Shown here piece after piece: positions 6,921 through 37,027 of a DNA stretch of 64,000 bases; within the stretch, counting starts at the first letter, position 1, and every line of letters starts with the position of its first letter. The translations under genes and the position numbers were made by a program. The notes under the pieces are model-generated. The model did no database searches. It saw nothing but the letters and a program-made list of their open reading frames with translations, and was not told the origin of the DNA. The stretch lies in NCBI GenBank assembly GCA_029262415.1, contig JAJCZL010000018.1:1-64000 (forward strand), given 5' to 3'. The DNA is from Deltaproteobacteria bacterium. Its GTDB lineage: Bacteria > Desulfobacterota > Binatia > UBA1149 > JAJCZL01.

Positions 6921-7167
6921 CGAAAGCCGGCCTAGTCCGTCAAGCCGGCGAACCGACAAGTAAGTGGTGAGGCCTATTAGGTCCGAGAAAGAGCGCGGCC
7001 TCGATTCAAGTCAAGATAGCGACCATACTCCGACCCTGATGGTGGGTCGTGATAGCTGTTGCGCTCGCGTCCCATCGCTGCACCGGCGCGCGCCGAAATT
7101 GGCCGCACGCTGAAATGAGTGCGGCTTTATCGTCCGCGTGGTTTTGAACGAAGCACTGGAGACGGCA

Positions 7168-16750: not shown

Positions 16751-16923
16751 CTCGACCTCCCTGCCGAACGCGCTCTCATAGCACCTATGCGGTGCCAAGC
16801 CACGGCCGACAAATTCGGCTGGGCGCTTGCCCAAACACCGATTCATACCGCCCTTGACTCACCGGCCCCGCGCCACCATCATTTGCATATGTGTGCATTT
16901 ACACAGGTATCTCCATAGTGGCC

Positions 16924-17346: not shown

Positions 17347-19935
17347 ATGACAGACGACAACACCAAGGGGCGATTCGCCGACCGGCTAGCCGCGACGCCT
17401 TCTCGCAGCGTGACACCGCCGACCGGTAGTATGTTCGGACTCGTGGTTCGATTCCGTTTCGCTGTCATCGCGCTCGTAGCCATTCTTACTGCGGCCTTTG
17501 CTTGGCAGTTGCCGAATCTGCGCCTCGACCCCGACACCGAGGCGTATATCCCCAAGGGGCATCCGATTCGGGTTTTCTGGAAACAGGCCAAAGAAGATTT
17601 CGCCGTCGGTAAGGATATTTTCGTAGGCATTGTCGCAGACGGCCCGCGCGGAGTCTTCACGCCGGAGATTCTCTCAGGTATCGCCGAACTGACCGAGGGG
17701 ATCAAGCAGCTCGATGCCGTCGTGGCCGACGATGTACGCAGCCTTTCCAACTCCGATGCCATCGTCGGCACCGAATCCGGTCTCGACATCGAGCCTTTCT
17801 ACCAAGAGCCGCCGTCTACGCCCGAACAGGCGGCCGAGATCCGTGAGAAGGTTTTTCGCAACGACGTCTATCTCGATCGACTCATCTCACGCGACGGATC
17901 CATCGCGGCGATAATCGTACAAGCCCACGACGCCTACGACGATAAATCGCCCTACGCTCACCCGGTCGAAACCTACCGCCAGGTTGTCGAGTACGTCGGC
18001 CACCAGCAAATTCCGGGAACCACGATGGTGGTGGCCGGCAACACCGCAGTAGAAGCGGCCTTCGGCCGGCAGATGGCGGCCGACCTGAAAAACCTCATCC
18101 CTACCGCGCTCATGGTCGTGGTGGTCACGTTGTTCCTGTGTTTTCGCTCGACTTCTTGGTGGCGATTCATCGCACGCACCGCCGGCGTTTTCCTGGTCTT
18201 GTCGGCGTGGGGCTGGTGGCATTCGGCGGCAACGCCCTCCCCTTACCTGGCGATGACCGCAGCGACGCTGGCGATGCTCACGGTCAGGGGGGTGTTGTTG
18301 CCGTGCACGGTGGTGGTCGTGTCGCTGGTGTGGACCTGGGGTGCACAAGCCATGCTCGACATGCCGATCTATATTTCCGGCACTCTGGTACCACCGATTC
18401 TCCTTGCGATCGGCTGCGCCGACGGCATCCATATCATCGAGCGCTACCTAGAGGAGGCGGCCTCGCGTAGGAACCGGGCAGAGGCGATCGTGGCGAGCCT
18501 GGGCGCCCTGTGGCGTCCGGTGGTTTTCACGTCGGTCACCACCGCAATCGGCTTCGGCGCGCTAATGCTCGGCCGCATGACGGTATATCAGGTCTTCGGC
18601 TTCACCGCGGCTTTCGGAATACTGGTAGCCATGCTGATGTCGCTGGTGCTGTTGCCGGCCATGCTTGCGGTCATGCCGTTGCCACCGCCCGTGGCTCGTG
18701 GGGTGCATGCGTCGATGGTTCCCGTCCTACTCGGACGGCTCGGAGCGAGGATCCAGCGCCGGCGCAAACCGACGCTCGCGGTCGGTCTCACTCTGACGCT
18801 TCTACTCCTGGCCGGTGCCGCCAAGCTCAAGGTGGATTACTCATGGGTGGAGAGCCTCACGCCGGGAAGCCGCGTGTTACAAGCCGACCGCCTGCTGCGC
18901 ACCCGCCACGGCGGAACCATGCCGATGAACATCGTCGTCGATTCCCAGCGAACCGACGGCATCAAAGACCCGGATCTCCTGCGCGGAATCGACGCCGTAC
19001 TCAGCGACCTGAGTGCCAATCCATCGGTCGGTGATACCCGCTCAATCGCCGAGTACATCAAGCGTATGAACGAGGCGATGCACGCGAATCGCGCCGGAAC
19101 ACTGCGAATCCCGGACAGCCGTGAGTTGATCGCGCAATACCTACTGCTGTATTCGATGTCGGGCGACCCGGGCGAACTCGACGATATGGTCGACTACGAT
19201 TACCGGCGCGCACAGATGGGTGTGTTGTTACGCACCGACCTACTCAGCAAGATGGACGAGGTTATCCTTCTCACCGAAGCCTCGCTCGACAAGCACGTTC
19301 GCTCGCTCGGCGCCGACGCGGTGATTACCGGCTCGGCGATGATCCAGAATACCGTCTTCGATCTGATTCTCACCAGCCAAGTCTATTCATTGACTACGGC
19401 GGTCCTGCTGGTCGCTTTGTTCATGGTAGTTCTGTTTCGCTCGATCCTCGACGCGCTGATCTGCATGCTGCCTTCGTTGTTCGCCGGTATCGCCAACTTC
19501 GGCGGCATGGCATTGCTCGGTATTCCGTTGGGGCCTGCCGAAGCCATGGTGAGCGCGATCGCCCTTGGTATCGGTATCGATTACTCGATCCATCTCATGT
19601 CGCGTATGCGCGAACTGACCGAGCAAAAAATGGGAATTACCGAAGCCACAGTCGAAGCCATGCGCACGACCGGCCGGGCGATCTTGTTCAACGGATTCGT
19701 AGTGGTAGCCGGCTTCACTGTTCTGGCGCTTTCAAGCACGCCGAGCAACGCGACCTTCGGTTTGGAGGTCGCCATAAATATGGGACTTACGTGTATCGCA
19801 GCACTCGTCCTTCTTCCGGCCGCACTCGCCGTGCGCGCCGAGTTCGCTTTGCCCGAGGCCGCCGTTCAGACGGCTTCGACCTCCACCGTCGCACCACGAG
19901 GACCGAAGTTCGGCGCACCGTACAACCCCCGGTAG
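17347..19935 (+). CDS. RND/MMPL-superfamily exporter
   Basis: An 862-residue inner-membrane protein with the two-repeat RND layout: TM1 (FAVIALVAILTAAFAWQ), a large periplasmic loop ('DPDTEAYIPKGHP'), TMs 2-6, then the second half from about residue 470. The proton-relay region is visible twice, as 'LLAIGCADGIHIIERYLEE' and 'ALGIGIDYSIHLMSRMRE', each with the conserved TM4/TM10 aspartate. MMPL-type members move lipids, hopanoids or other hydrophobic compounds across the envelope. An adaptor gene is not adjacent. Its last 70 bases overlap, in antisense, the end of the alpha1 gene of the molybdoenzyme operon. Confidence 0.92.
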   Translation: MTDDNTKGRFADRLAATPSRSVTPPTGSMFGLVVRFRFAVIALVAILTAAFAWQLPNLRLDPDTEAYIPKGHPIRVFWKQAKEDFAVGKDIFVGIVADGPRGVFTPEILSGIAELTEGIKQLDAVVADDVRSLSNSDAIVGTESGLDIEPFYQEPPSTPEQAAEIREKVFRNDVYLDRLISRDGSIAAIIVQAHDAYDDKSPYAHPVETYRQVVEYVGHQQIPGTTMVVAGNTAVEAAFGRQMAADLKNLIPTALMVVVVTLFLCFRSTSWWRFIARTAGVFLVLSAWGWWHSAATPSPYLAMTAATLAMLTVRGVLLPCTVVVVSLVWTWGAQAMLDMPIYISGTLVPPILLAIGCADGIHIIERYLEEAASRRNRAEAIVASLGALWRPVVFTSVTTAIGFGALMLGRMTVYQVFGFTAAFGILVAMLMSLVLLPAMLAVMPLPPPVARGVHASMVPVLLGRLGARIQRRRKPTLAVGLTLTLLLLAGAAKLKVDYSWVESLTPGSRVLQADRLLRTRHGGTMPMNIVVDSQRTDGIKDPDLLRGIDAVLSDLSANPSVGDTRSIAEYIKRMNEAMHANRAGTLRIPDSRELIAQYLLLYSMSGDPGELDDMVDYDYRRAQMGVLLRTDLLSKMDEVILLTEASLDKHVRSLGADAVITGSAMIQNTVFDLILTSQVYSLTTAVLLVALFMVVLFRSILDALICMLPSLFAGIANFGGMALLGIPLGPAEAMVSAIALGIGIDYSIHLMSRMRELTEQKMGITEATVEAMRTTGRAILFNGFVVVAGFTVLALSSTPSNATFGLEVAINMGLTCIAALVLLPAALAVRAEFALPEAAVQTASTSTVAPRGPKFGAPYNPR

Positions 19936-22766
19936 TGCAATTGACCGTAGTCTCCGGCCAGATGCAGAGCCTTCCACGGCGACGGCACCGGCTCCTGCAT
20001 GCCTTTACCACCCGCGAACTGGAACGATTCCCACGCGTGATAGATGATGGCCTGCCCCGGCTGCACGGTAGGTGCGGGCTTGGCAAGACACTCAAACCCG
20101 CCTACGTCGTTGAACACCCGAACCCGTCCGTTGTCGGCAATGTTCCGCGCCCGCGCGTCATCCTCGTTCATATAGAGCACCGGCTCGCCACGCTGCAGAC
20201 GCTGGAGCAACTCAGAACCGCGCCAAATTGCGTGGATGCTCCAGCGTGTATGTCCTCCGGTCAAACGCAGAGGATAGTCACCGCCGGCGGGCGGCGGGCG
20301 TTTGTGGACCGGTAAGGCTTCGTCGGCGTCAAGATACCACTCCTGATCCAGATAGAACTGCTGGCGGCCGGTAATCGTCGGCCACGATTCCTTTTCTTCG
20401 ACCTGCCATACGTGCGGGTACAAAGGTTTTTCGAAATCGACATCGCTGCACATGTTGTTGGTGGTGCTGTACATGCCGTTACGTTTTATGGGAATGATCC
20501 CGCGTTTGATCGCCTCGCTCCAAGTGGTGTCTTCACAAATCTCGGAATGCGCGAAGATATAATCCATCGCCGGACCTTGATCGGCAGGATCGTAAGTTCC
20601 TTTTTCGCCCCATACATCGAAAACGTCTCCGAGACAGAAATCCTTGCCGAAAACGTCTTTCCCGCGCGGGATACCGCGTTTGCGCGCGCGTTCTTGGATG
20701 CGACGGGCCAGGTTGCCGAAAATCCACCACTCGTTGCGCGATTCGCCGAGAGGTTCGACGGCTTTGTCGGCCAGCACCAGATAAGGGGTGAAGCCCCACG
20801 CGTATTTGATGCCTTCCTTCTCGTAAAAGCCGGCGGCCGGCAGCAGAATGTCGCTCTGCATCCCGGTCGTCGACATCTGCGTGTTGATGTTGACCACTAG
20901 ATCGAACTTCGGCCAGAGGTGCTCGAGGGCGATCTGCGGTGCCGGCCAGCGGCGAAGCGGGTTGCAAGCCGTCACCATGAACACCTTGGGATCCTTGCCG
21001 GGCTTTGGATAGATCGGGATCCACTCTTTCTCGATCGCCGTCTTCATGGCCTTGCCGACCGAGAGCGGATTTTCCTTATCGTTGTATTCGGGCGCACCCA
21101 TGATGTCTTCGTAGCCGCCGTGCACATGAAGCCACGGCATCGAGGGCGTGAACGTCGAGGTCTTACTGAACTCGGTCAGATACTTCTCGACCTTACGTAC
21201 CGCGGGCCTGCCCGTGACCTGGAGCATCAATTTTTGCCACCAAGGCATCTCCTCCATCTGCGAAAACTCGTCGAATCCGGTCAGCCCCCACCAAGACCCG
21301 ACTCTCAAGCCGCCGCCCGGTCGTCCTTGGTTGCCGGTCAGCGCCATCAGCAAAGCCATGCTACGGTGCATCAGGTCGCTGTGGTAATGCTTACACGCCC
21401 CCACCGAGGCATAGATCATCGCCGATCCCGCACCGGCCATGTCCCGGGCCACGCGCCGGATCAGACTCGCAGCGACACCGGTCTCCGCTGCGGCCAGCTC
21501 GGGGGTATAACGAGCGTCGAGATCACGCCGCAACACGTCGTGTACCGGCTCGACGCTAACCGAGCTTCCATCGGCAAGACGCACCGTCCGGGCTCCGGTG
21601 AGTGCCGGTTTAATGCCTTCGAGCCGCAGGGTGGGAGTCTTCATTCCCTGACTTCCCGGCGCAGTCGCTAAGCGGGCTTGTTTCTCATTCCATACATAAA
21701 AGACGTCGTCGCGGCCACCGCCCTTGACATCGCTCTCGCGCAGGAAACGACGATTGTCGCTGCGGACCAAGAACGGCAGGTCGGTTTGTTCGCGTACGTA
21801 GTCCTCGTCGACCAACCCTTCAGAGATCATCACCTGCGCCATCGCCAGAGCGAGTGCGGGATCGGACTGAACCTTCGGGTTGAGCCACAAGTCGGTATGC
21901 ATCGCCGATGCGTTGTAGTCGGGTCCGATGATCACTATTTGGGCGCCGCGGTAACGCGCGCCGGTCAGGAAGTGCATGTCGGGGATCCGAGTGTAGGCTG
22001 GGTTCGCGCTCCACAGGACGATGTAATCGGAGTTGAACCAATCGTCGCTGGTCCCGCCGGTCAGGAACATTCCGTAGGTTTGAACACAACCGATCGGCAT
22101 GTCGCCGATCCCAGCGAAAGTGTCGAGGACCGTTGCCCCGATCGAACGCGCAAACCGGAACTCGGCGCACGAGCCGGGACCCTGATCGAAGTTGGGTCCC
22201 GGTACGTGCACGACGGTCTCGGGCCCGTGCTCGCTCGCGGCCTCGATAACGCCGTCGGCGATCTTGTCGAAGGCCTGGTCCCAGGAGATCCGTTTCCACT
22301 TTCCAGAGCCGCGCTCACCGACGCGTTCGAGCGGGTAGCGCAAGCGCTGCGCCGACGACATCAGCTCGCTGTAACAAGCGCCCTTCTGACATCCGCGCGG
22401 GAAGAAATCGGGGGCGCCGCCACGTCCGCCATGGTCGTAGGTCTGCGCCTGTTCCTCTCGCCACACCATGTCGTCCTTGACGTAGACATCCCACGCACAT
22501 GCCGACAAACAATTCGCGCGGGTATGGCTGCAGCGGGCGACTCGATCCCAAGTCCATTTCTCCGCGTAGACGTCGCGCCAATCGCCGTACGGCGCGGGTT
22601 CGGCCGCGGCCCCCTCGCCGTGTTGCGACCCCGCCCCGGCCGGCTCGCGCGTAGGCTCCCCGCTTTGCCCGCACCCGGTTCCTATCCGCAAGGAGGTCAG
22701 ACTCAGAACCAGCGCGGTGCGACCTGAGCGGCGTAGAAACTCCCTACGTGTAAGCGCCCCGCTCAT
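19866..22766 (-). CDS. Molybdopterin catalytic subunit, alpha1 (EbdA/S25DH-like)
   Basis: A 966-residue periplasmic DMSO-reductase-family type II catalytic subunit. The twin-arginine signal is TRREFLRRSG (6-15). The FS0 [4Fe-4S] ligands are H81, C86, C90 and C126 (ending FFPRGCQKGAC). The predicted Mo-ligand aspartate is D222 in 'GIGDMPIGCVQ', followed by the type II signature 'DDWFNSDYIVLW' and 'TRIPDMHF'. Type II enzymes hydroxylate hydrocarbons or steroid side chains (ethylbenzene dehydrogenase, steroid C25 dehydrogenase) or reduce oxyanions. It is the last gene of the operon, starting inside the stop of the DUF7064-like gene (ATGA). It is most like alpha3 by eye. No adjacent beta or gamma subunit of its own. 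Confidence 0.93.
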   Translation of the reverse strand: MSGALTRREFLRRSGRTALVLSLTSLRIGTGCGQSGEPTREPAGAGSQHGEGAAAEPAPYGDWRDVYAEKWTWDRVARCSHTRANCLSACAWDVYVKDDMVWREEQAQTYDHGGRGGAPDFFPRGCQKGACYSELMSSAQRLRYPLERVGERGSGKWKRISWDQAFDKIADGVIEAASEHGPETVVHVPGPNFDQGPGSCAEFRFARSIGATVLDTFAGIGDMPIGCVQTYGMFLTGGTSDDWFNSDYIVLWSANPAYTRIPDMHFLTGARYRGAQIVIIGPDYNASAMHTDLWLNPKVQSDPALALAMAQVMISEGLVDEDYVREQTDLPFLVRSDNRRFLRESDVKGGGRDDVFYVWNEKQARLATAPGSQGMKTPTLRLEGIKPALTGARTVRLADGSSVSVEPVHDVLRRDLDARYTPELAAAETGVAASLIRRVARDMAGAGSAMIYASVGACKHYHSDLMHRSMALLMALTGNQGRPGGGLRVGSWWGLTGFDEFSQMEEMPWWQKLMLQVTGRPAVRKVEKYLTEFSKTSTFTPSMPWLHVHGGYEDIMGAPEYNDKENPLSVGKAMKTAIEKEWIPIYPKPGKDPKVFMVTACNPLRRWPAPQIALEHLWPKFDLVVNINTQMSTTGMQSDILLPAAGFYEKEGIKYAWGFTPYLVLADKAVEPLGESRNEWWIFGNLARRIQERARKRGIPRGKDVFGKDFCLGDVFDVWGEKGTYDPADQGPAMDYIFAHSEICEDTTWSEAIKRGIIPIKRNGMYSTTNNMCSDVDFEKPLYPHVWQVEEKESWPTITGRQQFYLDQEWYLDADEALPVHKRPPPAGGDYPLRLTGGHTRWSIHAIWRGSELLQRLQRGEPVLYMNEDDARARNIADNGRVRVFNDVGGFECLAKPAPTVQPGQAIIYHAWESFQFAGGKGMQEPVPSPWKALHLAGDYGQLHYRGLYGAPNFGPRGATVEVEAV

Positions 22767-23671
22767 TTGCTTACACCGGAAAGTTGGTACCCGTACTCGA
22801 TGATTCCGTAACCCACCCGATCATCGCTGCGGAAACGGCAAATCGCATCGTTGACTTGGGTCGCACCGATTGTGACTGGGCACACGTCCAAGACCTCGGC
22901 CTCGATCTCATGACGCACCCCCTTTTCGTTTACCAACCAGATTGACGCGCCGGTCTGCACCGTCGCCGCCGGGTTGGTTCTCAAAGCGACGTCGTGGTCC
23001 TGTAAACCCATGACGTGTTCACCGTCCCAAAAAAACCCGAGCTTCAAGTGAGTCTGCGCGTCGAAAGAGATCTTGACTGCGTTGAAGCTGAGATCCTCGC
23101 CGAATTCACATGATACGTACGTCCAGGTACCGAACTTCGCCCAGTCCCTCTCCCCGCCCCAGGAATGATCACGATGGGCGAGACAGTTCAGTTTGTAAGT
23201 CTTGCCGTCAATCCTTACCGTGCCGTGCACTCTGCCGGACTGTTCAATATGGCGGGCCGCTTGATCGGCGGTCGAATCGGGTGATACCGGGTACTGGTAG
23301 ACAGGACAGAACGCCTGCCACAACAAATCCATCCCGTAGCCGCCCGCGTCGTAAGTGAGACGCCATTTGCGCAGTGGTTCCACGCAACGGTAGGTCACCT
23401 TCTTCAGCCGCAGGTTGTCGATGTCGCCGTCGGGAACCGCACACACGAGATTGCTGGCGTTGTGAACGATCTTTCCGTCCTGAGATATGAAAAGCCAGAG
23501 GTTAGCGAGACTTTGGTTGGGAAGAATCCCGATGCGGGTGACCACGCCGATACCGGTCTCCGGATCGTAGATCGGGAACCAGTAGCTCTCGCTCCACAAG
23601 GGCAATGACCCGGGGCCGGGGTAGTGCCGGCGCTCATCGTCGGGCGAAATTGTATCGACGCTGCTCAACAT
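22763..23671 (-). CDS. DUF7064/AttH-CrtC-like lipocalin-fold protein (operon copy)
   Basis: A 302-residue cytosolic protein of the same family as the one at 7168-8139, recognised by 'HRDHSWGGERDW' near residue 170 and by 'DDRVGYGIIEYGYQL' at the end (compare 'GERVGYGLSEFL'). It lies inside the molybdoenzyme operon, 23 bases after the unknown helical gene, and overlaps alpha1 by four bases. This location suggests a role in processing or binding the hydroxylated product or substrate; no reaction can be named. Confidence 0.7.
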   Translation of the reverse strand: MLSSVDTISPDDERRHYPGPGSLPLWSESYWFPIYDPETGIGVVTRIGILPNQSLANLWLFISQDGKIVHNASNLVCAVPDGDIDNLRLKKVTYRCVEPLRKWRLTYDAGGYGMDLLWQAFCPVYQYPVSPDSTADQAARHIEQSGRVHGTVRIDGKTYKLNCLAHRDHSWGGERDWAKFGTWTYVSCEFGEDLSFNAVKISFDAQTHLKLGFFWDGEHVMGLQDHDVALRTNPAATVQTGASIWLVNEKGVRHEIEAEVLDVCPVTIGATQVNDAICRFRSDDRVGYGIIEYGYQLSGVSK

Positions 23672-23694
23672 GGCCTATTCCTCGAGCTCTCCGC

Positions 23695-24219
23695 TCACCC
23701 CTTGGACATTTCACTCAGACGCATAGGCTTTAGATAAAACGCGTCTCGTATCGTTTGATTGACCAGATGCTCGTGAACGCACTCACGAAGCTCGTCGTAA
23801 ACGCCGTGCGGCTCTGCGCCCTCGGACCCGGGGCTGTTGTCACCGACCGCGCGAACGAGATCCTCGAACACCTGCGCGTAACGCCGGCGACGCGCGAACC
23901 AGTCAACCGTCTCATCGCTTCCCTGTCGCGCATCAGATGACGGAAGCGCCGCAATCGCCGCCGACACCTCGGACAAGACCCGCCGCTTCGGGCTCGCTGC
24001 CGCTATCAGCTGTGCGGCGCGTGTCAGCGCGCTGCGGATACCATCGCACTCGTCACGAAGAATCTGCGCCTTCCAGTCCACCTTAACGGCAAGATTGCCG
24101 AGCAGATCGAGGCACGCGTAGAGCTGCGCTTTGGCTTTGCGGTCAGAGACGTTGGGGGCAACGTCGGTCTCGAGACTTTCCAGCACTCCCTGTAAAAGTT
24201 CGTCAAGGTTCAACACCAC
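23695..24219 (-). CDS. Uncharacterised helical protein
   Basis: I do not recognise this 174-residue protein. It is predominantly alpha-helical by sequence (LNLDELLQGVLESLETDVAPNV, then 'LYACLDLLGNLAVKV' and 'RYAQVFEDLVRAVG'), charged, and lacks signal peptide or membrane segments. It sits 13 bases after the APH-fold kinase gene and 23 bases before the DUF7064-like gene, so it is co-expressed with them. A partner or regulatory subunit of the kinase is possible. Codon use looks like its neighbours. Confidence 0.75.
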   Translation of the reverse strand: MVLNLDELLQGVLESLETDVAPNVSDRKAKAQLYACLDLLGNLAVKVDWKAQILRDECDGIRSALTRAAQLIAAASPKRRVLSEVSAAIAALPSSDARQGSDETVDWFARRRRYAQVFEDLVRAVGDNSPGSEGAEPHGVYDELRECVHEHLVNQTIRDAFYLKPMRLSEMSKG

Positions 24220-24232
24220 CGTTCTCCTTGAT

Positions 24233-25258
24233 TCAAAGCTGTATCAGCCCGAGAGACCCGGCGATCGCCGCGTACATCCCCGGAACCTGCTGATCGAAAA
24301 TCGCCATGCGCATATCCCGCGTACGACCGTCGTGCCACGCCTTAACACCGGTGAGCATGATGGACGCCATCTTGACCCCTGATAGCACCTCGTAAAAATG
24401 CAGCCGGTCCTGATCGACCTTCGCGCCACCGGCCTCTTGGTACCAGGCCGTGAAATCGTTGGGGTCAAGTAGATAGCCCGCACGCGGTGATTCGCCGCGC
24501 CAGATCTTCGACATTGCCCAGGCAAGGTCTTCCATCGGATCGCCGAGATGAACCATTTCCCAATCGAGAAACGCAGCGATACGATCGTCGCGTACGATGA
24601 AGTTGCCGGTCCGATAGTCTCCGTGCACCAAGCACACGTCGCCCTCGGGCGGTAGATTGTTTCGCAACCAACACAGAGCTTCGGTCATCATCGGCATAGG
24701 ACCGAGACGTGCCCGCTCGGTGTAGCCCTCCCAGACATCGACGGCGCGCTGGGCGGCTTGGCGGGCGTCTCGCGGCATATCGAGAAACTCGAGATCCGCC
24801 GCCCGTGCATCCACGTTATGAATGTCGGCCAGGATACGGCAGAAATCGCGACCGACCGAGAGCCTTTGCTGCTCGTCGGGAAACGGCGGACGCCCGTGTG
24901 CGTCAAGCGCCGGTATGGGCACCTCGCCGGCCACCCATTCCATGACATAGAACGGAGCCGACAGTACCGCCGGATCCGCCTCGTACCAAAGAACGCGAGG
25001 GAAACGCACCGGCGAGTCGGCAATCGCCTGCAGCGCAAGAAACTGCGGCTCGAGATCGTACGGTTCGAGAAGCCCCGCAGGAGGTTCACGGCGAACTACC
25101 AGCCGACGCTGGTGCGCCGATGAACCTTCGCGCCAGGATACGTCGAAGGAAAACGTCTGCAGAGAAAACCCCTCAGTATGTCTGGTCACCGCGCCGACAG
25201 AAATGTCGTCTGCCTGCGGCATCTTCGATGCCAGAAAGGTTGCCAACGCTTCACGCAT
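24233..25258 (-). CDS. APH-fold phosphotransferase (ACAD10/11-like)
   Basis: A 341-residue kinase of the aminoglycoside phosphotransferase superfamily. The nucleotide region includes 'RRLVVRREPPAGLLEPYDLEPQFLALQAI'. The catalytic loop is 'CLVHGDYRTGNFIV' (HGDxxxxN) and the metal site is 'AFLDWEMVHLGDPMEDLAW'. This style is typical of ACAD10/11-like kinases that phosphorylate hydroxyl groups of hydroxy-acids or their CoA esters, not antibiotics. In an operon for hydrocarbon-type hydroxylases it could phosphorylate the alcohol formed, allowing later elimination; that is inference. Confidence 0.85.
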   Translation of the reverse strand: MREALATFLASKMPQADDISVGAVTRHTEGFSLQTFSFDVSWREGSSAHQRRLVVRREPPAGLLEPYDLEPQFLALQAIADSPVRFPRVLWYEADPAVLSAPFYVMEWVAGEVPIPALDAHGRPPFPDEQQRLSVGRDFCRILADIHNVDARAADLEFLDMPRDARQAAQRAVDVWEGYTERARLGPMPMMTEALCWLRNNLPPEGDVCLVHGDYRTGNFIVRDDRIAAFLDWEMVHLGDPMEDLAWAMSKIWRGESPRAGYLLDPNDFTAWYQEAGGAKVDQDRLHFYEVLSGVKMASIMLTGVKAWHDGRTRDMRMAIFDQQVPGMYAAIAGSLGLIQL

Positions 25259-25275: not shown

Positions 25276-26592
25276 TTATTTCAAAATATTCGCAGTGGAC
25301 GAAGTAAGGTAGGTACCCTGCGGCGTGCAGCCCGCAACCGAGACCAGCATCTGTCCGGCCGGCCTGGGCAACGCACCTTTCAGCACGACCGTGAAACGGT
25401 CTCTTTGTTTGCTCTGCTCGACGCCGAGTTCAGCCGTCGTCGGCAGGTCGCGACCGGGGCCGGAAGACAACAGAACCGAGGCACCGGAGTCGTGCTTCCA
25501 TTGCCACACCGTCATCGGTTTCCCCTCGGAACCGACTACAAAACTGGCCGGAGGATCTACCGGTGCAAAGCCGATGCGCAACGACGCACACGAGTTCGGG
25601 CCGTCATCCCAAGACGCACGTATCGCCATGTTACCGTCGTCGGCGACAACACCGACATCGATGGGTTCGAAATAGCGGATATAGCCGCCGCTCAACGCCA
25701 TACGGGCAACCTTGCCGCCGGTGACCGAGTCCCAAGCCGGATCTTTCAAACTCAAAGGCGGCGTACCACGCGACACCGAAAGCGCGCTGCGAGAAGACTG
25801 CTGCACGTCCAGGGGCTTGCCGAACGAGGTAATATAGCGCACCACCGCCCACCTCTCCTCGGTGTTCATGGCATCCTTCCAGAACCCCGTCATCGGCGTC
25901 CCGTCCAAACCCGTCAGCACGCGAAGATACAGGTCCTCGGGTCGGGAACCGCCCTTGTACACACCGATACTATAGTTGCGTGGGTGCAGCGGCTCTCCCC
26001 AGTCATCTTTCGTCTCTTCGACGGGCTTGGCGTCGCCCTTACCGGTCTCGCCGTGGCATCCGATGCAACCCATCTTCGTGTACAGCTCTTTGCCCAACGC
26101 GAGTTGTCGATCATCCGGCACCGGCATCGCTGGAACTACGGCCGGCGGAGGAGTCTCGTAAAGCGAAAACCAGCTTCCCTCTTCACTCTCGGGTCCACCG
26201 AGCGTCTTGAGAAACACGACGGCGTCAGCGATATCCTGCTCGTCCAGGTCGCGAAAAGACGGCATCCCGGTGCCCGGCATACCGTTGGTCACTGTCTTGA
26301 CGAGATCCTCGGTGGTCGGCAACTCACCGCTCTCGGTACTGCGCAGCTTGAAAAGACCCTTCTGGAAATTGCGCGGGCGCGGGCTCATGAGCGCGGCGGC
26401 CGGACCGTCGCCGTGACCGGTATCGCCGTGACACACCGCGCACTGACGATCAAAAATCGTTTTGCCGTTGCCCGCGTCGGCGGCCCTAGCCGGGCTTGCC
26501 GTCAGCCAATTCACCGTGACCACCAGAACCGCCGCGACCAGATACGCTCTGGTGACACATTGCGGAGATAAAACACTCAAGTACGTTTTCAT
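25276..26592 (-). CDS. Diheme cytochrome c fused to an EbdC-like heme-b domain
   Basis: A 438-residue exported protein. Signal peptide at 1-37 (ending ASPARAAD). Two cytochrome c domains bind heme at C51-AV-C54-H55 and C176-IG-C179-H180. From about residue 285 the protein continues as a beta-rich domain with 'PMTVWQWKHDSG' (M360, WQW 363-365), which resembles the EbdC-like gamma subunit's M111 and WQW. It may therefore bind a b-type heme. One chain would thus link an EbdC-type heme to two c-hemes. It is the natural periplasmic electron acceptor for the alpha/beta enzymes of the operon. Start 26592 lies seven bases after the TorD-like stop. Confidence 0.82.
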   Translation of the reverse strand: MKTYLSVLSPQCVTRAYLVAAVLVVTVNWLTASPARAADAGNGKTIFDRQCAVCHGDTGHGDGPAAALMSPRPRNFQKGLFKLRSTESGELPTTEDLVKTVTNGMPGTGMPSFRDLDEQDIADAVVFLKTLGGPESEEGSWFSLYETPPPAVVPAMPVPDDRQLALGKELYTKMGCIGCHGETGKGDAKPVEETKDDWGEPLHPRNYSIGVYKGGSRPEDLYLRVLTGLDGTPMTGFWKDAMNTEERWAVVRYITSFGKPLDVQQSSRSALSVSRGTPPLSLKDPAWDSVTGGKVARMALSGGYIRYFEPIDVGVVADDGNMAIRASWDDGPNSCASLRIGFAPVDPPASFVVGSEGKPMTVWQWKHDSGASVLLSSGPGRDLPTTAELGVEQSKQRDRFTVVLKGALPRPAGQMLVSVAGCTPQGTYLTSSTANILK

Positions 26593-26599
26593 GACCGAC

Positions 26600-27292
26600 T
26601 CACTCTTGCACAGGCCCTTCCGAGCCAATCAGATACACTGCGTCGGCTTTACAATAGGCGGCGGTCAAGCCTACGAGGGCGCGCCAGAACGGTTGCACCT
26701 CGACCTTATCGAGCTTCTTCAAGGCGAGCGGCAACCAGCGCGCTGGGTGCCGCACCAAAAAATCGCGCGCCGCACGCCGCGGCGAACCGGCATCGGTGCC
26801 GACACGCAGTGCCTCCAATTCTTTGAAGGTGAGGAAATGCAGAAACTCGAGCTCGGTACTCAAATGGTCGGGGAGATCTTTCTCTTCCTTTGACGTCGTC
26901 AGCCCGAAGAAGCGATAAAATCGCAGCGCTTCCTCCATCACTTTCTGTCGATCACCGATCCAATGGCCTCCGTAAAGTGGGCAGGGAGGACCTCCGGCAC
27001 CGACGTCGAACAGGCTCACATAGACAGATTGGAATTCATCGTACTCGGGTTCCACCGCGCCCAGTCCGGCCAGTAACTCCTCGGCATTGCCCACACTATA
27101 GGGCAACGCGGCCAGGCATTCCCCGGCCGCCGGCGCCAGTTGTCCGCTCAATGCGAGTTCGTGGAAGTCCTCCCACGGGAAACGCAGCCAGGACGACAGA
27201 TGACTATAGAGAGTACTGCGAGCCGCTGCGTAGCGTTCTGCGCCCGGTGCTATGGCTTCAATAGTTGTGGCGTTCTGCGTGGCATTTTGCAT
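26600..27292 (-). CDS. TorD/DmsD-family molybdoenzyme chaperone
   Basis: A 230-residue cytosolic all-helical chaperone. The family core is present: 'ARSTLYSHLSSWLRFPWEDFHEL', then 'EYDEFQSVYVSLFDVGAGGPPCPLYGG' (the E-Y/F-x-LF core), 'RQKVMEEALRFYRFFGL', and 'DHLSTELEFLHFLTFKE'. Such proteins hold the apo-catalytic subunit, protect the twin-arginine signal and help cofactor insertion. One chaperone would have to serve five alpha subunits. The start at 27292 follows GAGGAG; earlier in-frame starts overlap alpha2. Confidence 0.9.
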   Translation of the reverse strand: MQNATQNATTIEAIAPGAERYAAARSTLYSHLSSWLRFPWEDFHELALSGQLAPAAGECLAALPYSVGNAEELLAGLGAVEPEYDEFQSVYVSLFDVGAGGPPCPLYGGHWIGDRQKVMEEALRFYRFFGLTTSKEEKDLPDHLSTELEFLHFLTFKELEALRVGTDAGSPRRAARDFLVRHPARWLPLALKKLDKVEVQPFWRALVGLTAAYCKADAVYLIGSEGPVQE

Positions 27293-27329
27293 TGTGGATT
27301 CTCCTCGGCGTTTGCTCATCGAACTGGAT

Positions 27330-30194
27330 TCACGGGAGTCGTACGACATCCACCCGCGTGTCGCGACCGGCTTGCCCTGGCTCGTAGTGTGCGAACGACC
27401 AGGCCAAATGCCCGTAATCGGCCGCCAATTGGGTTACCTTTAACGGCGCAGGCGCGACGTGTTGATGGCTGCGCCCTTCTTCGAACTGAAACGGTTCCCA
27501 AGAGTGATACACCGTAGCCACGCCCGGACGGGAACTCGGCACAATCTTCGCACGTGCAATAAAGTTACTGACATCGTTGTAAACCTGTACACGGTCGTAA
27601 TCGTCGATGCCGCGTTCGGCCGCATCGACGATGCCAAGCAAAACCACAGGCTCTCCTCTTTGTAAGCGCAACATCAGTTCGTTATCGCGCCAGATCGAGT
27701 GGATACTCCAGCGTGCGTGTCCACCCGACAGCGTAAGAGGAAAGTCTCCGCCGGCCGCGGGAGGCTCTTTGAAACGCGGCAACTCTTCGCCGAGCTTCAG
27801 AAACCAGCGATGGTCGATGTAGAACTGTTGGCGGCCGGTCAGAGTCGGATACGGTTTTTTCTGTTCGACAAACCAGCGCAAGGGTACTACCGGTTCTCTC
27901 TCCGAGTAATCGGAATAGATGCCCGTGGTCGCGCCTTGCTGGCCGAGGGATTTGATGCGTTCGGTGCCCGACTTGCGCAACCCTTCGAGGTCCATCCCTT
28001 TTGATGCAGCCGATACCGTCAGGATGAAATCGGCGAGTTTTTCTTCGTCGTGCGCACCGAAACGGCCGTCGTCGCTGAAACCGTCGCCCAACTCGGTGAG
28101 GTTGCGGTCGACACCGAGGTAATCGCTATATGCGCCCACTCCGCGCTCGCGCGCACGGCGCGCGACGGCGTGGGCCAAGTGGTGGAAGATCTCCCATTCC
28201 GGTTTTGACTCACCGGCCGGGCTGACGGCGCGGTCGCCGAGCGTCACGTAGGGTATCAGTGAGGGAATATACTTAAACCCGACTTTTTCGTACCAGCCCG
28301 CCGCGGGCAGAACGATATCGCTGACTAAGGCGGTTTCGTTCATGCGGAAATCAACGTGAACCACCGTGTCGAGCTTGGGCCACAAGTGTTCTACGAGCAG
28401 ATGGCCGCTTCTGGAATGACGCACGACGTTGCCGAAAATCGACAGCATGAAGGTCGGGGTTACCTCGGTGTTGATCGGATAAAACTTCTTATTGAGAGCC
28501 TCGTCGACGTATTGCGCCGGACCGTCGGCGAGCATCGGATCTCCGTAGGCGGGTACCGCGCTGACCTTGCTCAACCCGCCGTGAACGTAGTGCCACAGCC
28601 CCGAGGGCACAAAATACTTGGAGAAGTCGGCAAGATTATCCTCAGGATCGCGGAAGTAGCTGCGCGTGGCGAGGATGATCAGATCGATCAAACCGAGGTC
28701 GCGCTGCATCGAGAGCACCGGCCATCCCTCCATGCCCACGAACGCCCCCGATCGCCAGCCGCCGCCCGCGCGCCCGAGATTGCCGGTGACCGAAGCGAGA
28801 AGAATCTGCGCGCGCTGCAACAGGTCGGAGTGATAAAACTTACACGAGCCGTACTGTGAAAGGATCAACGCGCTCGGCGCCGAAGCAAAATCACGCGCGA
28901 AACGGCGAATCGTAGCGGCCGAGATCCCGGTCACCTTCGACGCCGCCTCCGGACGATACTCGGCATCGAGCAGACGCTTGAGCCGATCGAACACCGTCTC
29001 CACCTCGACTACGACACCACCCGGCAGACTGACCTTGCTGGACCCCGAAAGCGTGGGTTTGGTCTCTCCCCAATCGAGCGTCTCCTGCGAGTTCTTGCCG
29101 GTCCCCGGTGCCTTGACCAAACCTCGCCCCACAGAATCCAAAACGTAGAAGACTTGCTCGCTACCCCGTTTGCCGAGATCGGATTCACGCAAGAAACGGC
29201 CGTTGTCCTTGCGAACGAGAAAGGGAAGATCGGTTTGCTCGATCAGATAGGCTTGGTCGTGCAGCCCCTCGTCGAGCACAACCTGTACGGCCGACATAGC
29301 CAAAGCGGCATCGGTACCGGGCCGCGGGCTGATCCAGGTATCGGCATGAACCGTTGAGGCGTTGTAGTCGGGAGCGATACTGGTGATGCGCGTGCCGTTG
29401 TAACGCGCTTCGTTGAGAAAATGAGCGTCGGGAATACGCGTGTACACGGGGTTGAACGCCCACAAGACAATGTGCCGCGAACGAAACCAGTCATCCGAAC
29501 TGCCGTCGGTATGCGGGGTGCCGAGCGTGATCGTGCCGCCGAAAGCGACATCGCCGATCATCGCCATATTGTCGGTGATCGGTCCGCCGAGCATCTTGAA
29601 AAACCGTAGTGCCGCCGCCGAATTGGGTCCGTAGTCGATTTCGGGACCCAGCTCGGCAATCACTCCGGCCCCACCCGCACGCTCCACCGCATCGACCAAG
29701 CCGTCGGCGATTTCGTCGAGGGCTTGGTGCCACGAAATTCTTTTCCAGCGGCGGCTGCCGCGCGGCCCAACACGCTTTAATGGATATCGTAACCGGGTGG
29801 GCCCGATCGATAGATGGCTCGCGCAGGCACCTTTTTGACAACCCCGTGGGTTGAAATCCGGGCATTCGCCGCAACCTTCATCGTAACTGCCGGCCTGCTC
29901 CTCGCGCCAAACCACGTCGTCGCGTACGTATAGGTTCCAAGCGCACGCCGATACGCAGTTGGCGTTTGTATGCGTACCTTTGGCGATCCGATCCCAGCTC
30001 CATGCCTCACGATAGAGGTCTCGCCAATCCCCGTACTCGTTTGCGCCGACGCCCGTGCCGCCGCGTCCGCCGCCGGCTGCGGGATCGAGCGCTGCGCTCG
30101 CGCCGGGCGGGGCAAAGCCCAGACGGGCCATCATCAAGGTCAGCGCGCCGGCTGAAGAAAGCTGCAAAAACCGGCGCCTGCTGACGGCGTTCAT
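27330..30194 (-). CDS. Molybdopterin catalytic subunit, alpha2 (EbdA/S25DH-like)
   Basis: A 954-residue type II molybdoenzyme subunit with twin-arginine signal SRRRFLQLSSAG (5-16). FS0 ligands H75, C80, C84 and C119 (ending FNPRGCQKGAC), with two extra cysteines just before (EGCGECPDF). The predicted Mo ligand lies in 'MIGDVAFGGTI', where the alpha1/alpha3 'GDMP.GCVQ' sequence is replaced. Next comes 'DDWFRSRHIVLWAFNPVYTRIPDAHF'. It starts inside the alpha3 stop (ATGA), at a methionine selected because it immediately precedes the twin-arginine motif. Its active-site loop differs enough from the others to suggest another substrate. Confidence 0.92.
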   Translation of the reverse strand: MNAVSRRRFLQLSSAGALTLMMARLGFAPPGASAALDPAAGGGRGGTGVGANEYGDWRDLYREAWSWDRIAKGTHTNANCVSACAWNLYVRDDVVWREEQAGSYDEGCGECPDFNPRGCQKGACASHLSIGPTRLRYPLKRVGPRGSRRWKRISWHQALDEIADGLVDAVERAGGAGVIAELGPEIDYGPNSAAALRFFKMLGGPITDNMAMIGDVAFGGTITLGTPHTDGSSDDWFRSRHIVLWAFNPVYTRIPDAHFLNEARYNGTRITSIAPDYNASTVHADTWISPRPGTDAALAMSAVQVVLDEGLHDQAYLIEQTDLPFLVRKDNGRFLRESDLGKRGSEQVFYVLDSVGRGLVKAPGTGKNSQETLDWGETKPTLSGSSKVSLPGGVVVEVETVFDRLKRLLDAEYRPEAASKVTGISAATIRRFARDFASAPSALILSQYGSCKFYHSDLLQRAQILLASVTGNLGRAGGGWRSGAFVGMEGWPVLSMQRDLGLIDLIILATRSYFRDPEDNLADFSKYFVPSGLWHYVHGGLSKVSAVPAYGDPMLADGPAQYVDEALNKKFYPINTEVTPTFMLSIFGNVVRHSRSGHLLVEHLWPKLDTVVHVDFRMNETALVSDIVLPAAGWYEKVGFKYIPSLIPYVTLGDRAVSPAGESKPEWEIFHHLAHAVARRARERGVGAYSDYLGVDRNLTELGDGFSDDGRFGAHDEEKLADFILTVSAASKGMDLEGLRKSGTERIKSLGQQGATTGIYSDYSEREPVVPLRWFVEQKKPYPTLTGRQQFYIDHRWFLKLGEELPRFKEPPAAGGDFPLTLSGGHARWSIHSIWRDNELMLRLQRGEPVVLLGIVDAAERGIDDYDRVQVYNDVSNFIARAKIVPSSRPGVATVYHSWEPFQFEEGRSHQHVAPAPLKVTQLAADYGHLAWSFAHYEPGQAGRDTRVDVVRLP

Positions 30195-33073
30195 ACCCGT
30201 TCGACTTCCACCGTTGCGCCGCGCGGGCCGTGGCTCGGGGCACCGTAGTTGATGCGATAATGAAGCTGACCGTAGCCGCCTGCCATGTGCAACGCCTTCC
30301 ACGGCGAGGCCACAGGCTCTTGCTGGCCGGCATGACCCGGGAACTGGTAGGGCTCCCAGGCGTGATAAATCATCACTTGCCCGCGCTGAACCGCCCCACT
30401 GGTCTTCACCAGCGTCTCGAAGGTGCCTACATCATTGAAGACGCGTACACGATCGTTGTCGGCCACTCGACGTACGCGCGCGTCGTCGTCGTTCATGTAC
30501 AACACCGGTTCGCCCCGCTGCAGCCGCAACATCAAATCGTGGTCGCGCCAGATCGCGTGAATGCTCCAACGGGTATGCCCGCCGGTCATACGCAACGGGT
30601 AGTCGCCGCCCGCGGCCGGAGGATCCTTGTGCACCGGAAGTTGTTCTCCCGCTCCAAGGAACCATTCGTGATCGATGTAAAACTGCTGGCGGCCCGTCAA
30701 CGTAGGCCACGATTCCTTGCCCTCGACTTGCCAGGCGTGCGGATACAGAGGCTTGTTGATGTCCTGGTCCGTACAGATGGCACTGATCGACGAATAGTGA
30801 CCGTTGCGCTTGATCGGGATCACCCCTCTTTCGAGCGCCTGTTTCCAGGTCATCGAGTCGCAGACTTCGGATTGCTCAAATATTTGATCGAGAAGGGGTT
30901 GAGAATCCTCGGGAACGAATTTGCCGTTCTCACTCCACTGGTCAAAGACCTCCGTTAAGGCGAAGTCGTTGCCGAATACGTCTTTGAGCTTGCCGACACC
31001 TCTGCGTTTGGCACGCTCTTGAATGCGGCGGGCCAACTGACCGAAGATCCACCACTCCTCACGGGACTCTCCGATCGGTTCGACCGCCTTACCGGCAAGG
31101 ACAATGTAGGGAAGGTAGGATTGGGTGTACTTGATACTGTCTTTTTCGTAATAGCCCGCCGCGGGCAGCAACAGGTCGCTGTGCAGCCCGGTTGTCGACA
31201 TGCGGAAGTTCACGTTGACGATGAGGTCGAGCTTCGGCCACAGGTTCTTCAATGCAACCTGCGGAGTCGGCCAGCGGCGAAGCGGATTCGGTGCACTGAA
31301 GAACAGCACTTTCGGATCCTTGCCCGGAGGAGGATAAACCGGCACCCACTCGCGCTCTAACGAGGTCTTCACGGCATCGTTGACACTCAGACCCCCGGCG
31401 GCGTCGTTGTAGTCGGGGTTGCCCATGGTCTGCTCGTAGCCGGCGTGCACGTAGAGCCAGGGCATCAACGGTGTATAGAGCTGTTTGGCGCTCTGTTCGG
31501 TAATCAAGCGTTCCATATCGCGCACCGGCAGGCGCGACATGAACTTCATAAGCAGGCTCTGCCACCACTTGATATCGTACTGCGCACTGAACCGCTCGAA
31601 CCCGCTCACCGTCCACCACGAAGCGATGCGAAGACCTCCGCCGGACTTGCCCTGATTGCCGGTGAGGGCCATCAGCAGAGCCATCCCCCGGTGCATGAGG
31701 TCGCTGTGGTAGTGCTTACACGCACCCCAAGACGCAAAAATCATCGCGGTGCCGGCGCCTGCAATCTCGTGGGTGAGTTTTCGAATCACCGCCGGAGCAA
31801 CTCCGGTGATCTCGGCAGCGGCCTCGGGGCGATAGTTCGCATTCAGGTTGCGCCGCAGAGATTCAAAAACCGGCTCGACCTCGACTCTGCCACCACCGGC
31901 AAGCTTGACCTCGAAGGTCCCTTCCAGAGCCGGACGGATCGCCCCGAGCACCAGCGTCGGCTTACTGCGTCCCTGGCTACCGGGAGCCAGGACCGGCCGG
32001 CCCGAGGTTTCATCCCAAAGATAGAAAGCGTCATCGCGGCCTTTGCTGCTGACGTCGCTCTCACGCAGAAACCGCCCGGTATCGGTACGTACCAAGAAAG
32101 GCAGGTCGGTCTGCTCGCGAACGTAGTCAGAGTCGATCAGGTTCTCGGCGATCAAGACCTGGGCTAGCGAGAGCGCAAGAGCCGGGTCGGACTCGACCCG
32201 CGGGTTGACCCAAAGATCGGCGTGGATCGCGGTCGCGTTCATGTCGGGGGCGATGACGATCAGTTTTGCTCCCCGGTAGCGGGCTTCGGTCATGAAGTGC
32301 ACTTCGGGGATACGCGTATAGACGGGGTTGCCGCTCCAAACCACGATACAGTCGGAGTTGAACCAGTCGTCGCTGGTGCCCTCGCAGTTGAACATCCCCC
32401 AGGTCTGCACACAGCCCATCGGCATGTCGCCGACACCTGCCCAGCCGTCGATGTGTGAGGCACGCAGAATATTGGCCAAACGAAATTCGCCGGCCGTGCC
32501 GGGGCCGAAATCTATATTGGTCGTTCCCTGATCGTACACCACGGTTTCGGGGCCATGCTCAACCGCCGCGTCGATAATCGCGTCGGCGAGCGTATCGATG
32601 GCTTCGTCCCATGAGATGCGCTTCCAACGGCCCCCGCCACGTTCACCGACTCGCTTGAGCGGATAACGAAGCCGGGTGGGCGCGTACATGAGGCTGGTAT
32701 AGGCCGCGCCTTTTTGACAGCCGCGCGGGAAGAAATCCGGCGCGCCGGCGCGCGCTTCGTTGTAGACCTGCGCCTGTTCCTCCCGCCACGCGATGCCGTC
32801 CTTGACGTAGACCTTCCATGCGCAAGCCGAGATGCAGTTAGCACGGGTGTGCGAGCAACGTGCGATTGAATCCCACGTCCATTTTTCCCGATAGACGTCG
32901 CGCCAGTCTCCGTAAATTCCGCCGCGAGCCGCCAGCGTGGTCCCTTCTCCGACGCCCTGCCCGCCGCTTGCGTCGCTGGGGACCACAAGTACTTGGAGAG
33001 AACTGGTCGCCAACACCACCGCGGTCAAGCCGGATGCGCGTAAGAACTGACGGCGGGTGAGTGTGCTGTCCAT
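30191..33073 (-). CDS. Molybdopterin catalytic subunit, alpha3 (EbdA/S25DH-like)
   Basis: A 960-residue type II molybdoenzyme subunit. Twin-arginine signal LTRRQFLRASG (5-15). FS0 ligands H75, C80, C84 and C119. Predicted Mo ligand in 'GVGDMPMGCVQTWG', then 'DDWFNSDCIVVWSGNPVYTRIPEVHF'. Across the whole length, including the C-terminal 'HYRINYGAPSHGPRGATVEVERV', it is closest to alpha1, so these two look like the youngest duplication. Eleven bases separate it from alpha4. The start codon has AGGAG a few bases upstream. Confidence 0.93.
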   Translation of the reverse strand: MDSTLTRRQFLRASGLTAVVLATSSLQVLVVPSDASGGQGVGEGTTLAARGGIYGDWRDVYREKWTWDSIARCSHTRANCISACAWKVYVKDGIAWREEQAQVYNEARAGAPDFFPRGCQKGAAYTSLMYAPTRLRYPLKRVGERGGGRWKRISWDEAIDTLADAIIDAAVEHGPETVVYDQGTTNIDFGPGTAGEFRLANILRASHIDGWAGVGDMPMGCVQTWGMFNCEGTSDDWFNSDCIVVWSGNPVYTRIPEVHFMTEARYRGAKLIVIAPDMNATAIHADLWVNPRVESDPALALSLAQVLIAENLIDSDYVREQTDLPFLVRTDTGRFLRESDVSSKGRDDAFYLWDETSGRPVLAPGSQGRSKPTLVLGAIRPALEGTFEVKLAGGGRVEVEPVFESLRRNLNANYRPEAAAEITGVAPAVIRKLTHEIAGAGTAMIFASWGACKHYHSDLMHRGMALLMALTGNQGKSGGGLRIASWWTVSGFERFSAQYDIKWWQSLLMKFMSRLPVRDMERLITEQSAKQLYTPLMPWLYVHAGYEQTMGNPDYNDAAGGLSVNDAVKTSLEREWVPVYPPPGKDPKVLFFSAPNPLRRWPTPQVALKNLWPKLDLIVNVNFRMSTTGLHSDLLLPAAGYYEKDSIKYTQSYLPYIVLAGKAVEPIGESREEWWIFGQLARRIQERAKRRGVGKLKDVFGNDFALTEVFDQWSENGKFVPEDSQPLLDQIFEQSEVCDSMTWKQALERGVIPIKRNGHYSSISAICTDQDINKPLYPHAWQVEGKESWPTLTGRQQFYIDHEWFLGAGEQLPVHKDPPAAGGDYPLRMTGGHTRWSIHAIWRDHDLMLRLQRGEPVLYMNDDDARVRRVADNDRVRVFNDVGTFETLVKTSGAVQRGQVMIYHAWEPYQFPGHAGQQEPVASPWKALHMAGGYGQLHYRINYGAPSHGPRGATVEVERV

Positions 33074-35952: not shown

Positions 35953-35971
35953 GTCTGTCTCCAGCCGGGCG

Positions 35972-37027
35972 TCAGGTCTTCGCTGTCCACTCGAGCGTGG
36001 CCGGGTCACGATCGAGATTGTGGAACATGTCGAGCCAGCGGCGTGAAATCAGCAGGTCCATGAGTTCGGACTTGCCTCCGCCGCGGGTCTTGTCCATCTC
36101 GCGCTGTAGAATCTCGAGCGACCCGTGCACTGCGGGGCCGAAAAGGTGCTCGAGATAGGCAGTCGGGATCCGCGGGCTCGACTCATCGACGTTGCCGTCC
36201 TTGTCCAAACGCGGCGGCGCGATCGGCGGCACGTAGTACACGTTGGGCTCGGTGCCGTACTCGGGATGCAGCGGTATGGCCACTTTCCAGTCCTTGACCA
36301 GTTTGTAAATCGGCCCCTCGGGATCATCTAGGTAGCCGGCGAAACGCACCCGGCCCGGACACATACGCGCGCACGCCGGTGCCACTTCCTTGTCGACTCG
36401 CGGAAAGCAGAAAATGCACTTCTGTGCGACCTTGCGCGCCTGGTTGAAGTAGATCTTCTTGTAGGGGCAGGCTTCCATGCAAAACCGGTAGCCGCGGCAA
36501 CGGTCTTCGTTGATCAAAACGATGCCGTCTTCTTCGCGTTTCTCGATCGCGGCGCGCGGACAGGCATCCAAACACGCAGGGTGCGTACAGTGGTTGCAGA
36601 TCCGCGGTAGGTAGAAGAAGTAACTGTTCGGGTACTCTCCTCCGCCCTGGTCTTCGTCCCAGTTGGGTCCCCAGGTGGTATCGCCCTCGGGCTTGAGATG
36701 AACCTTTGAGCCTTTGCCGCCGTAAAAGACTTCGTCGTAGTTGAACTTCCACGCATCCCCGAACTCTCCCCGGGTGGGAAGGTGTCCGGCCCTGGGAACG
36801 TCTTCGGAGTCGAAACCGCCGCCCATCTTTTCGTAGTCGCGCGGAGTCCCACGGCCGGGCTGGGTGTTGACCGTCGCCCACCACATGTACTCCATACCCT
36901 CGTCGCGGGTCCACAATCGCTTGCAAGCGATCGTGCATGTCTGGCAGCCCAAACACTTATTGAGATCGAACACCATCGAGACCTGATGCTTCGGCTGTTG
37001 TTCGGCGTCCTTGCGTATCCTTGCCAT
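35972..37027 (-). CDS. Four-cluster iron-sulfur beta subunit (EbdB/DdhB/NarH-like)
   Basis: A 351-residue electron-transfer subunit. Four cysteine groups: CLGCQTCTIAC, CNHCTHPACLDACP, CRGYRFCMEACP and C-x2-C-x11-C-x3-C (CIFC to CARMC). The third has tyrosine where a cysteine would be, as expected for a [3Fe-4S] cluster in NarH-type proteins. The size matches EbdB and the beta subunit of steroid C25 dehydrogenase. It has no signal peptide and would be exported with a twin-arginine-bearing alpha partner. It is the only such subunit in the window although five alpha genes are present. Confidence 0.95.
   Translation of the reverse strand: MARIRKDAEQQPKHQVSMVFDLNKCLGCQTCTIACKRLWTRDEGMEYMWWATVNTQPGRGTPRDYEKMGGGFDSEDVPRAGHLPTRGEFGDAWKFNYDEVFYGGKGSKVHLKPEGDTTWGPNWDEDQGGGEYPNSYFFYLPRICNHCTHPACLDACPRAAIEKREEDGIVLINEDRCRGYRFCMEACPYKKIYFNQARKVAQKCIFCFPRVDKEVAPACARMCPGRVRFAGYLDDPEGPIYKLVKDWKVAIPLHPEYGTEPNVYYVPPIAPPRLDKDGNVDESSPRIPTAYLEHLFGPAVHGSLEILQREMDKTRGGGKSELMDLLISRRWLDMFHNLDRDPATLEWTAKT

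Follow-up and report, generated by a model that had tools for sequence, protein, structure and literature searches.

A candidate ATP-driven dehydration module in a type II molybdenum hydroxylase operon of the Binatia

Three adjacent genes on the minus strand of a 64,000-nucleotide stretch of Deltaproteobacteria bacterium DNA (positions 1 to 64,000 of contig JAJCZL010000018.1, here called the window; located on contig C18 in a genome of 3.9 Mb that is related to Candidatus Binatota and allied metagenome-assembled genomes) lie within an operon of type II molybdenum hydroxylase genes and encode, in order of transcription, a 341-aa APH-fold kinase (24233..25258), a 174-aa protein predicted to be all helix (23695..24219), and a 302-aa protein composed of DUF7065 and DUF7064 (22763..23671). 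We consider it likely that this trio is a cytoplasmic module for ATP-driven dehydration, fed by the type II molybdenum hydroxylase of the same operon. The data are best read as dehydration of a (probably tertiary) alcohol because i) the third protein matches the fold and the presumptive catalytic aspartate of 25-phosphosteroid lyase (25-PSL); ii) in other genomes a 25-PSL-type lyase takes its place behind the same lineage of kinase and helical protein; and iii) kinase-lyase pairs adjoin type II alpha subunit genes in Chloroflexota as well. The initial annotation of this DNA had proposed that phosphorylation of a tertiary or secondary alcohol made by the molybdoenzymes could activate it for elimination; the two-step chemistry is well supported, if indirectly, by the 25-PSL fold, Asp168, the exchange of lyases, and the Chloroflexota pairs beside type II alphas, although the idea itself was already in print, and the tertiary alcohol is retained as probable, whereas nothing favors a secondary one such as 1-phenylethanol.

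In the sequence of events we propose, a periplasmic type II molybdenum hydroxylase, exported by the twin-arginine (Tat) route, would insert oxygen from water at a carbon of the substrate, probably a tertiary one in the side chain of an isoprenoid or steroid-like compound; the kinase would move the gamma-phosphate of ATP onto the new hydroxyl; the DUF7065/DUF7064 protein (hereafter the lyase) would remove the phosphate, with Asp168 as the proposed catalytic residue, to leave an alkene; and the alkene would make the neighboring carbon allylic, so that a second alpha paralog could hydroxylate it. For the 174-aa protein we envisage a role as partner to the kinase, possibly as a subunit that serves its structure or presents the substrate. 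No signal peptide was seen by eye on any of the three trio proteins, and the kinase and lyase should therefore be cytoplasmic, in agreement with the alternation of compartments proposed in PMC7411048.

Phosphorylation followed by elimination is not new. Sterolibacterium denitrificans dehydrates 25-hydroxysteroids at the expense of ATP, by way of a 25-phosphoester and between two hydroxylations by molybdenum enzymes (PMC7411048; for the kinase, PMC8449060), and a hydroxylation/dehydration cascade has already been suggested for non-steroidal isoprenoids (PMC7411048); no lyase candidate is reported near the gene of the 25-hydroxysteroid kinase (25-HSK; PMC8449060), and the lyase is still termed putative (PMC11061730). 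The 25-HSK/25-PSL system and the window have in common an APH-fold kinase and an all-beta lyase with the Asp of an RDxSWG motif, but in the window the kinase and lyase genes are adjacent inside a hydroxylase operon, with a helical partner gene between them. ACAD10/ACAD11 likewise combine a related kinase fold with phosphorylation and then elimination, as a 4-hydroxyacyl-CoA kinase and a phosphate-eliminating acyl-CoA dehydrogenase (PMC11342911, PMC12440821); in the trio, however, the elimination partner is a DUF7065/DUF7064 protein, and no acyl-CoA dehydrogenase gene adjoins it in the window; such a gene stands ahead of the trio in G012 only. New to us are a hydroxylase operon, from a poorly known phylum, with these three genes side by side in this order, the sister subfamily to which the lyase belongs, the helical partner, the exchange of one lyase for another, and, next to molybdoenzyme genes, a natural fusion of kinase, SCP2, and lyase.

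Kinship of the three proteins

The protein initially annotated as DUF7064-like exceeds the Pfam cut-offs for both DUF7065 (PF23213, E 3.3e-20, 73.4 bits against a cut-off of 27) and DUF7064 (PF23212, E 6.3e-18, 65.7 bits against 24.7). A phmmer search of the PDB returned 25-PSL (9fzn) as a weak but the only significant match (E 2.4e-5). The AlphaFold model (pLDDT 94) predicts the two-domain all-beta AttH/CrtC-like fold of 9fzn, 9g2i, and 9g4c, and the five best Foldseek matches of this model are 25-PSL structures (E ~1e-15); VIA superimposes it on 9g4c with Z 24.8 and a root-mean-square deviation of 2.9 over 267 residues at 21% identity. The structures were released in January 2026, and a search of one literature library for an article describing them found none. 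The Asp of the RDRSWG motif in 9fzn is Asn in 9g4c, which contains phosphate and desmost-1,4-diene-3-one, and we infer that 9g4c is a catalytic mutant. Asp168 of the window lyase, within the motif HRDHSWGG (residues 166-173; 23153..23176, minus strand), aligns with the RDxSWG Asp and is invariant both across a diverse set of 25 relatives, some of them from Asgard archaea, and in 10/10 25-PSL-like proteins; the window lyase shares with all ten Asp168, Ser170, Trp171, Gly173, Arg175, Gly287, Gly289, and Glu292. Proteins with DUF7065/7064 and RDxSW are found in Helarchaeota and Lokiarchaeota (L044, L053, L055, L058-L060, L079, and others), where some group with the lyases of distant trios and no kinase neighbor was detected. 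The window itself encodes a second DUF7065/DUF7064 protein of 333 aa (7138-8139, plus strand), whose matched part is only 25% identical to the trio lyase, with relatives in G001 and G002 (62-67% identity).

The kinase, described initially as an APH-fold protein with HGD and DWE motifs, indeed matches APH (PF01636, E 1.1e-37), and LVHGDYRTGN (residues 210-219) and LDWE are intact. The catalytic loop HGDYRTGN (Brenner motif HxDxxxxN; residues 212-219, 24602..24625) and DWE, a metal-binding DxD-equivalent motif (residues 232-234, 24557..24565), are invariant in the kinase alignment; judged by its sequence, the protein thus combines the APH fold with the intact HGDxxxxN and DWE expected of a 25-HSK. 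In a first maximum-likelihood tree the window kinase falls in a clade of ten (100/96) that takes in every kinase found beside a member of the 174-aa family except one, that of G007, where the match to the partner is weak; in an enlarged tree the clade has 20 rows (95/94) and also contains the kinases whose sets include a lyase of 25-PSL type. Among PDB sequences the kinase is closest to the APH-like protein 9fsg (E 5e-25), possibly but not certainly 25-HSK itself, which falls with Rv3168 in another clade.

The 174-residue protein was called unrecognized in the initial annotation, and so it remains: it matches no Pfam or NCBIfam family, and even at E 10 does not match DUF6285 (PF19802). The AlphaFold2 (AF2) model is all helix with moderate confidence (pLDDT 77), and a fold search with it gave nothing significant (best E 1.1). 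Alignment of family profiles with hhalign nevertheless points to a remote relationship with DUF6285 (probability 66, E 5.6e-5; controls, 1.9 for the reversed profile and at most 1.2 for 30 column shuffles). DUF6285 proteins resemble the 174-aa protein in being helical, in lying beside or fused to APH kinases (fused in L163 and L170), and in profile; the 174-aa protein differs in falling under the Pfam threshold and in being longer (174 residues against a 91-position model). The kinase gene adjoins a 174-aa homolog in 22/22 loci checked, including the lyase-less loci of G005, G007, and G042, and we conclude that the 174-aa protein is a partner of the kinase rather than of the lyase.

Trios, pairs, and fusions in other genomes

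The initial annotation had suggested looking for the same three-gene set elsewhere, and it does recur. The trio is present in the same order in the Binatota genomes G011, G012 (split over two contigs), and G023, and in more distant form in L078, L081, L085, L091, L092, and L114; this retention of gene order excludes chance as the origin of the arrangement in the window. Relative to the window, kinase and lyase are 67-70% and the 174-aa protein 37-40% identical in G011 and G012, and the G023 kinase, lyase, and 174-aa protein are 52, 47, and 33% identical. A scan of GTDB genomes for the lyase only yielded 80 loci, in 20 of which a same-strand APH kinase lies directly beside the lyase, compared with ~0.8 expected from the density of APH kinases further out in the same loci; the figure is an estimate, as some of these loci went into the kinase profile.

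The most telling observation is that the place of the lyase is filled by two subfamilies, one of them a named phosphate lyase with solved structures. In six Binatia (G049, G044, G036, G029, G019, and G103) a trio-type kinase, 44-54% identical to the G023 kinase, and a 174-aa homolog stand ahead of a 25-PSL-type lyase that shares 38-45% identity over the compared stretch with the crystallized 25-PSL (the reading frame of the G019 lyase is interrupted). Because the same lineage of kinase and helical protein precedes either lyase, two subfamilies of one fold occupy the third gene position.

Linkage to type II alpha genes recurs outside the Binatota. A Chloroflexota locus (L040) has the order type II alpha, 172-aa protein, kinase-SCP2, lyase, FAD oxidoreductase, type II alpha, 353-aa protein, AFOR, gamma, beta, and in a Dehalococcoidia locus (L042) a single open reading frame of 897 residues (a count that begins upstream of the true start) joins APH, SCP2, and DUF7065/7064 and adjoins two type II alpha genes. 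Within the Binatia, on contig C171 of G007, a kinase gene and a weak 174-aa homolog lie between beta and alpha genes.

Several pairs of an APH kinase with a DUF7065/7064 or 25-PSL-like protein were also seen in Sterolibacteriaceae and in Aromatoleum toluclasticum (L063 4562-10870; L086; L151). About 20 Binatia genomes encode likely 25-PSL orthologs (L211-L218; 59-64% identity over the compared stretch), an indication of sterol side-chain degradation there; none of eight examined has a same-strand kinase beside it, as reported for S. denitrificans. NCBIfam matches around 25-PSL-like genes in G000 and G005 comprise acyl-CoA dehydrogenases, an enoyl-CoA hydratase, and a thioesterase; no sterol-specific family is among them, and they do not narrow the substrate.

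Weighing the alternatives

Several observations weigh against the dehydration module as we have drawn it. A maximum-likelihood tree sets the nine-row clade of the window lyase (100/98) apart from the 25-PSL clade (100/99); residues H141 and H169 of the window lyase are Arg in 25-PSL, and E143 is not conserved there; and the window genome encodes a 25-PSL-like protein elsewhere (C78), 34% identical. We therefore rejected the identification of the 302-aa protein as 25-PSL itself and, on the grounds of the separate clade and the changed residues, assign it by sequence to a sister subfamily. Among 148 Binatia genomes, moreover, the lyase subfamily occurs in 7 and close type II alphas in 26, but both occur together in only 3 of the 7 carriers (P = 0.10, or P = 0.03 if a partial match in G018 is counted), and we dropped genome-wide co-occurrence as proof since it is not significant. 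In the four remaining carriers a molybdoenzyme is not a necessary source of the alcohol; a trio or pair without close type II alphas occurs in G023, G024, G031, and G057. G011 keeps its trio on a contig other than that of the syntenic molybdoenzyme operon, whose cytochrome c gene has no trio next to it. The weakness of co-occurrence across the Binatia indicates that the tie between trio and molybdoenzymes is local, not obligatory, and that the trio can do without a molybdoenzyme. 25-PSL-like proteins are far commoner than the window subfamily (74/148 Binatia genomes) and occur in 18/18 alpha-bearing genomes outside one family, a grouping made after seeing the data.

These same genomes and the G011 operon would suit a pair that acts by phosphorylation and elimination on a hydroxylated substrate unrelated to the molybdoenzymes, such as a hydroxyacyl-CoA or a lipid hydroxylated by other means, and that was inserted recently into the operon, as would the acyl-CoA dehydrogenase gene located just before the G012 trio; yet that dehydrogenase is 64% identical to one inside the G018 molybdoenzyme cluster, the L040 and L042 proteins carry an SCP2 lipid-carrier domain, and linkage to type II alphas recurs independently in these Chloroflexota loci and, for kinase and helical gene, in Binatia G007, so that we regard this explanation as unlikely. 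More doubtful still is that the kinase acts elsewhere and the DUF7065/DUF7064 protein works as a hydratase, isomerase, or cyclase. Fold alone does not decide the matter, because by VIA the model fits AttH (Z 27.2) better than 25-PSL and kievitone hydratase (24.7) and fungal pericyclases (~24) about equally well, and the replacement of two 25-PSL Arg residues by His would also suit a different chemistry of this kind. Members of the CrtC/AttH/kievitone hydratase superfamily share the fold of the window lyase at 11-13% identity; kievitone hydratase converts a prenyl double bond to a tertiary alcohol, the reverse type of change, and to our knowledge no kinase coupling has been described in the superfamily. 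Against such an activity stand the constant pairing with a kinase and one natural fusion to it, the sequence-level kinship and RDxSWG motif shared with 25-PSL, and the interchangeability of the third trio gene with a 25-PSL-type lyase. That the kinase stands outside catabolism, as a phosphotransferase that inactivates antibiotics or metabolites, is highly improbable: apart from the APH fold, this has in its favor a distant match to NCBIfam APH(3') that scores far under the cut-off (48 against 205 bits), whereas the best PDB matches are 9fsg, Rv3168 (3ats), and, lower, ACAD11, none of them resistance enzymes, and the operon with lyase and helical gene is conserved.

The hydroxylase operon and what the trio may mean

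All three trio reading frames are confirmed on the minus strand, and coding potential favors each of them. The co-directional gene order is alpha5, cytochrome b, gamma, beta, alpha4, alpha3, alpha2, delta, cytochrome c, kinase, 174-aa protein, lyase, alpha1. Consistent with the initial description of a gapless trio between the cytochrome and alpha1, 17 bp separate cytochrome c from kinase, 13 bp kinase from the 174-aa gene, and 23 bp the latter from the lyase, whose end overlaps the start of alpha1 by 4 bp. Upstream of the kinase are cytochrome c with two cytochrome c domains (25276..26628; PF00034, two stretches), the delta chaperone of molybdoenzymes (Nitrate_red_del, 26600..27349; PF02613, E 4e-20), alpha2 (27330..30302; TIGR03479, E 1e-270), alpha3 (30191..33073; E 2e-285), alpha4 (33085..36009; E 1e-277), the beta Fe-S subunit (35972..37027; PF13247, E 8e-31), the gamma heme b subunit (EB_dh, 37054..37698; PF09459, E 2e-25), a cytochrome b561-type membrane protein (37692..38501; PF01292, E 3e-9), and alpha5, a further molybdopterin alpha subunit (38330..41368; PF00384, E 4e-36, with TIGR03479 also matching), all on the minus strand like alpha1 (19866..22766; TIGR03479, E 8e-268).

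Alpha1 is a type II subunit of the DMSO reductase family which aligns over its full length with the alpha subunit of ethylbenzene dehydrogenase (2ivf) and keeps the Asp of the IGD motif (D223 in 2ivf). The alphas match TIGR03479 over nearly its full length at 891-949 bits, under the curated cut-off of 984.75 but within the same family; identity with ethylbenzene dehydrogenase itself (the NCBIfam EbdA equivalog) was rejected on score (554-671 bits against a cut-off of 2000). Twin-arginine leaders can be read from the sequences of alpha1, alpha2, alpha3, and alpha4, and the NCBIfam TAT model matches alpha3. In S. denitrificans, multiple alphas share fewer beta and gamma genes (PMC6016249). Type II alpha paralogs are heavily amplified in some Binatota (G005, G007, G011, and G012), each genome having on the order of ten to twenty copies or more, and the G011 ortholog of alpha3 contains an in-frame TAA.

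Also near the hydroxylase cluster are genes for a DUF1329 protein (2890-4164), an SBF (bile acid:Na+ symporter family) transporter (5438-6535), and an MMPL/Patched-like transporter with a weak sterol-sensing-domain match (17347-19935), which give a hint, no more, of a steroid- or terpenoid-like lipid substrate. The MMPL gene adjoins one for an ATC_hydrolase-family protein (16040-16846, minus strand; PF14196, E 1e-6). Two further stretches close to the cluster (54461-58057 and 48867-50780) encode a glycyl radical enzyme resembling pyruvate-formate-lyase, accompanied by a gene like that of a radical-SAM activase, and a FeoB iron transporter.

We wish to raise, as a tentative extension which we would not yet back at even odds, that the kinase-helical-lyase set is a widespread modular cassette in which one lineage of kinase and helical protein, combined with different phosphate lyase subfamilies, dehydrates hydroxylated lipids far beyond the sterols at the cost of ATP; in Binatota and Chloroflexota the cassette would be plugged into type II hydroxylase operons for oxygen-independent attack on isoprenoids, and the helical protein would be a new kind of kinase subunit. 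Should the dehydration module prove correct, DUF7065 and DUF7064 would define a likely phosphate lyase family, with a testable residue in Asp168 and a candidate kinase partner in the helical protein; an APH kinase with a helical partner and an RDxSWG lyase, or a kinase-SCP2-lyase fusion, would provide a gene-cluster signature for oxygen-independent side-chain oxidation in uncultured phyla; and the ATP-dependent dehydration known from one cholesterol degrader would also be used by Binatota and Chloroflexota.

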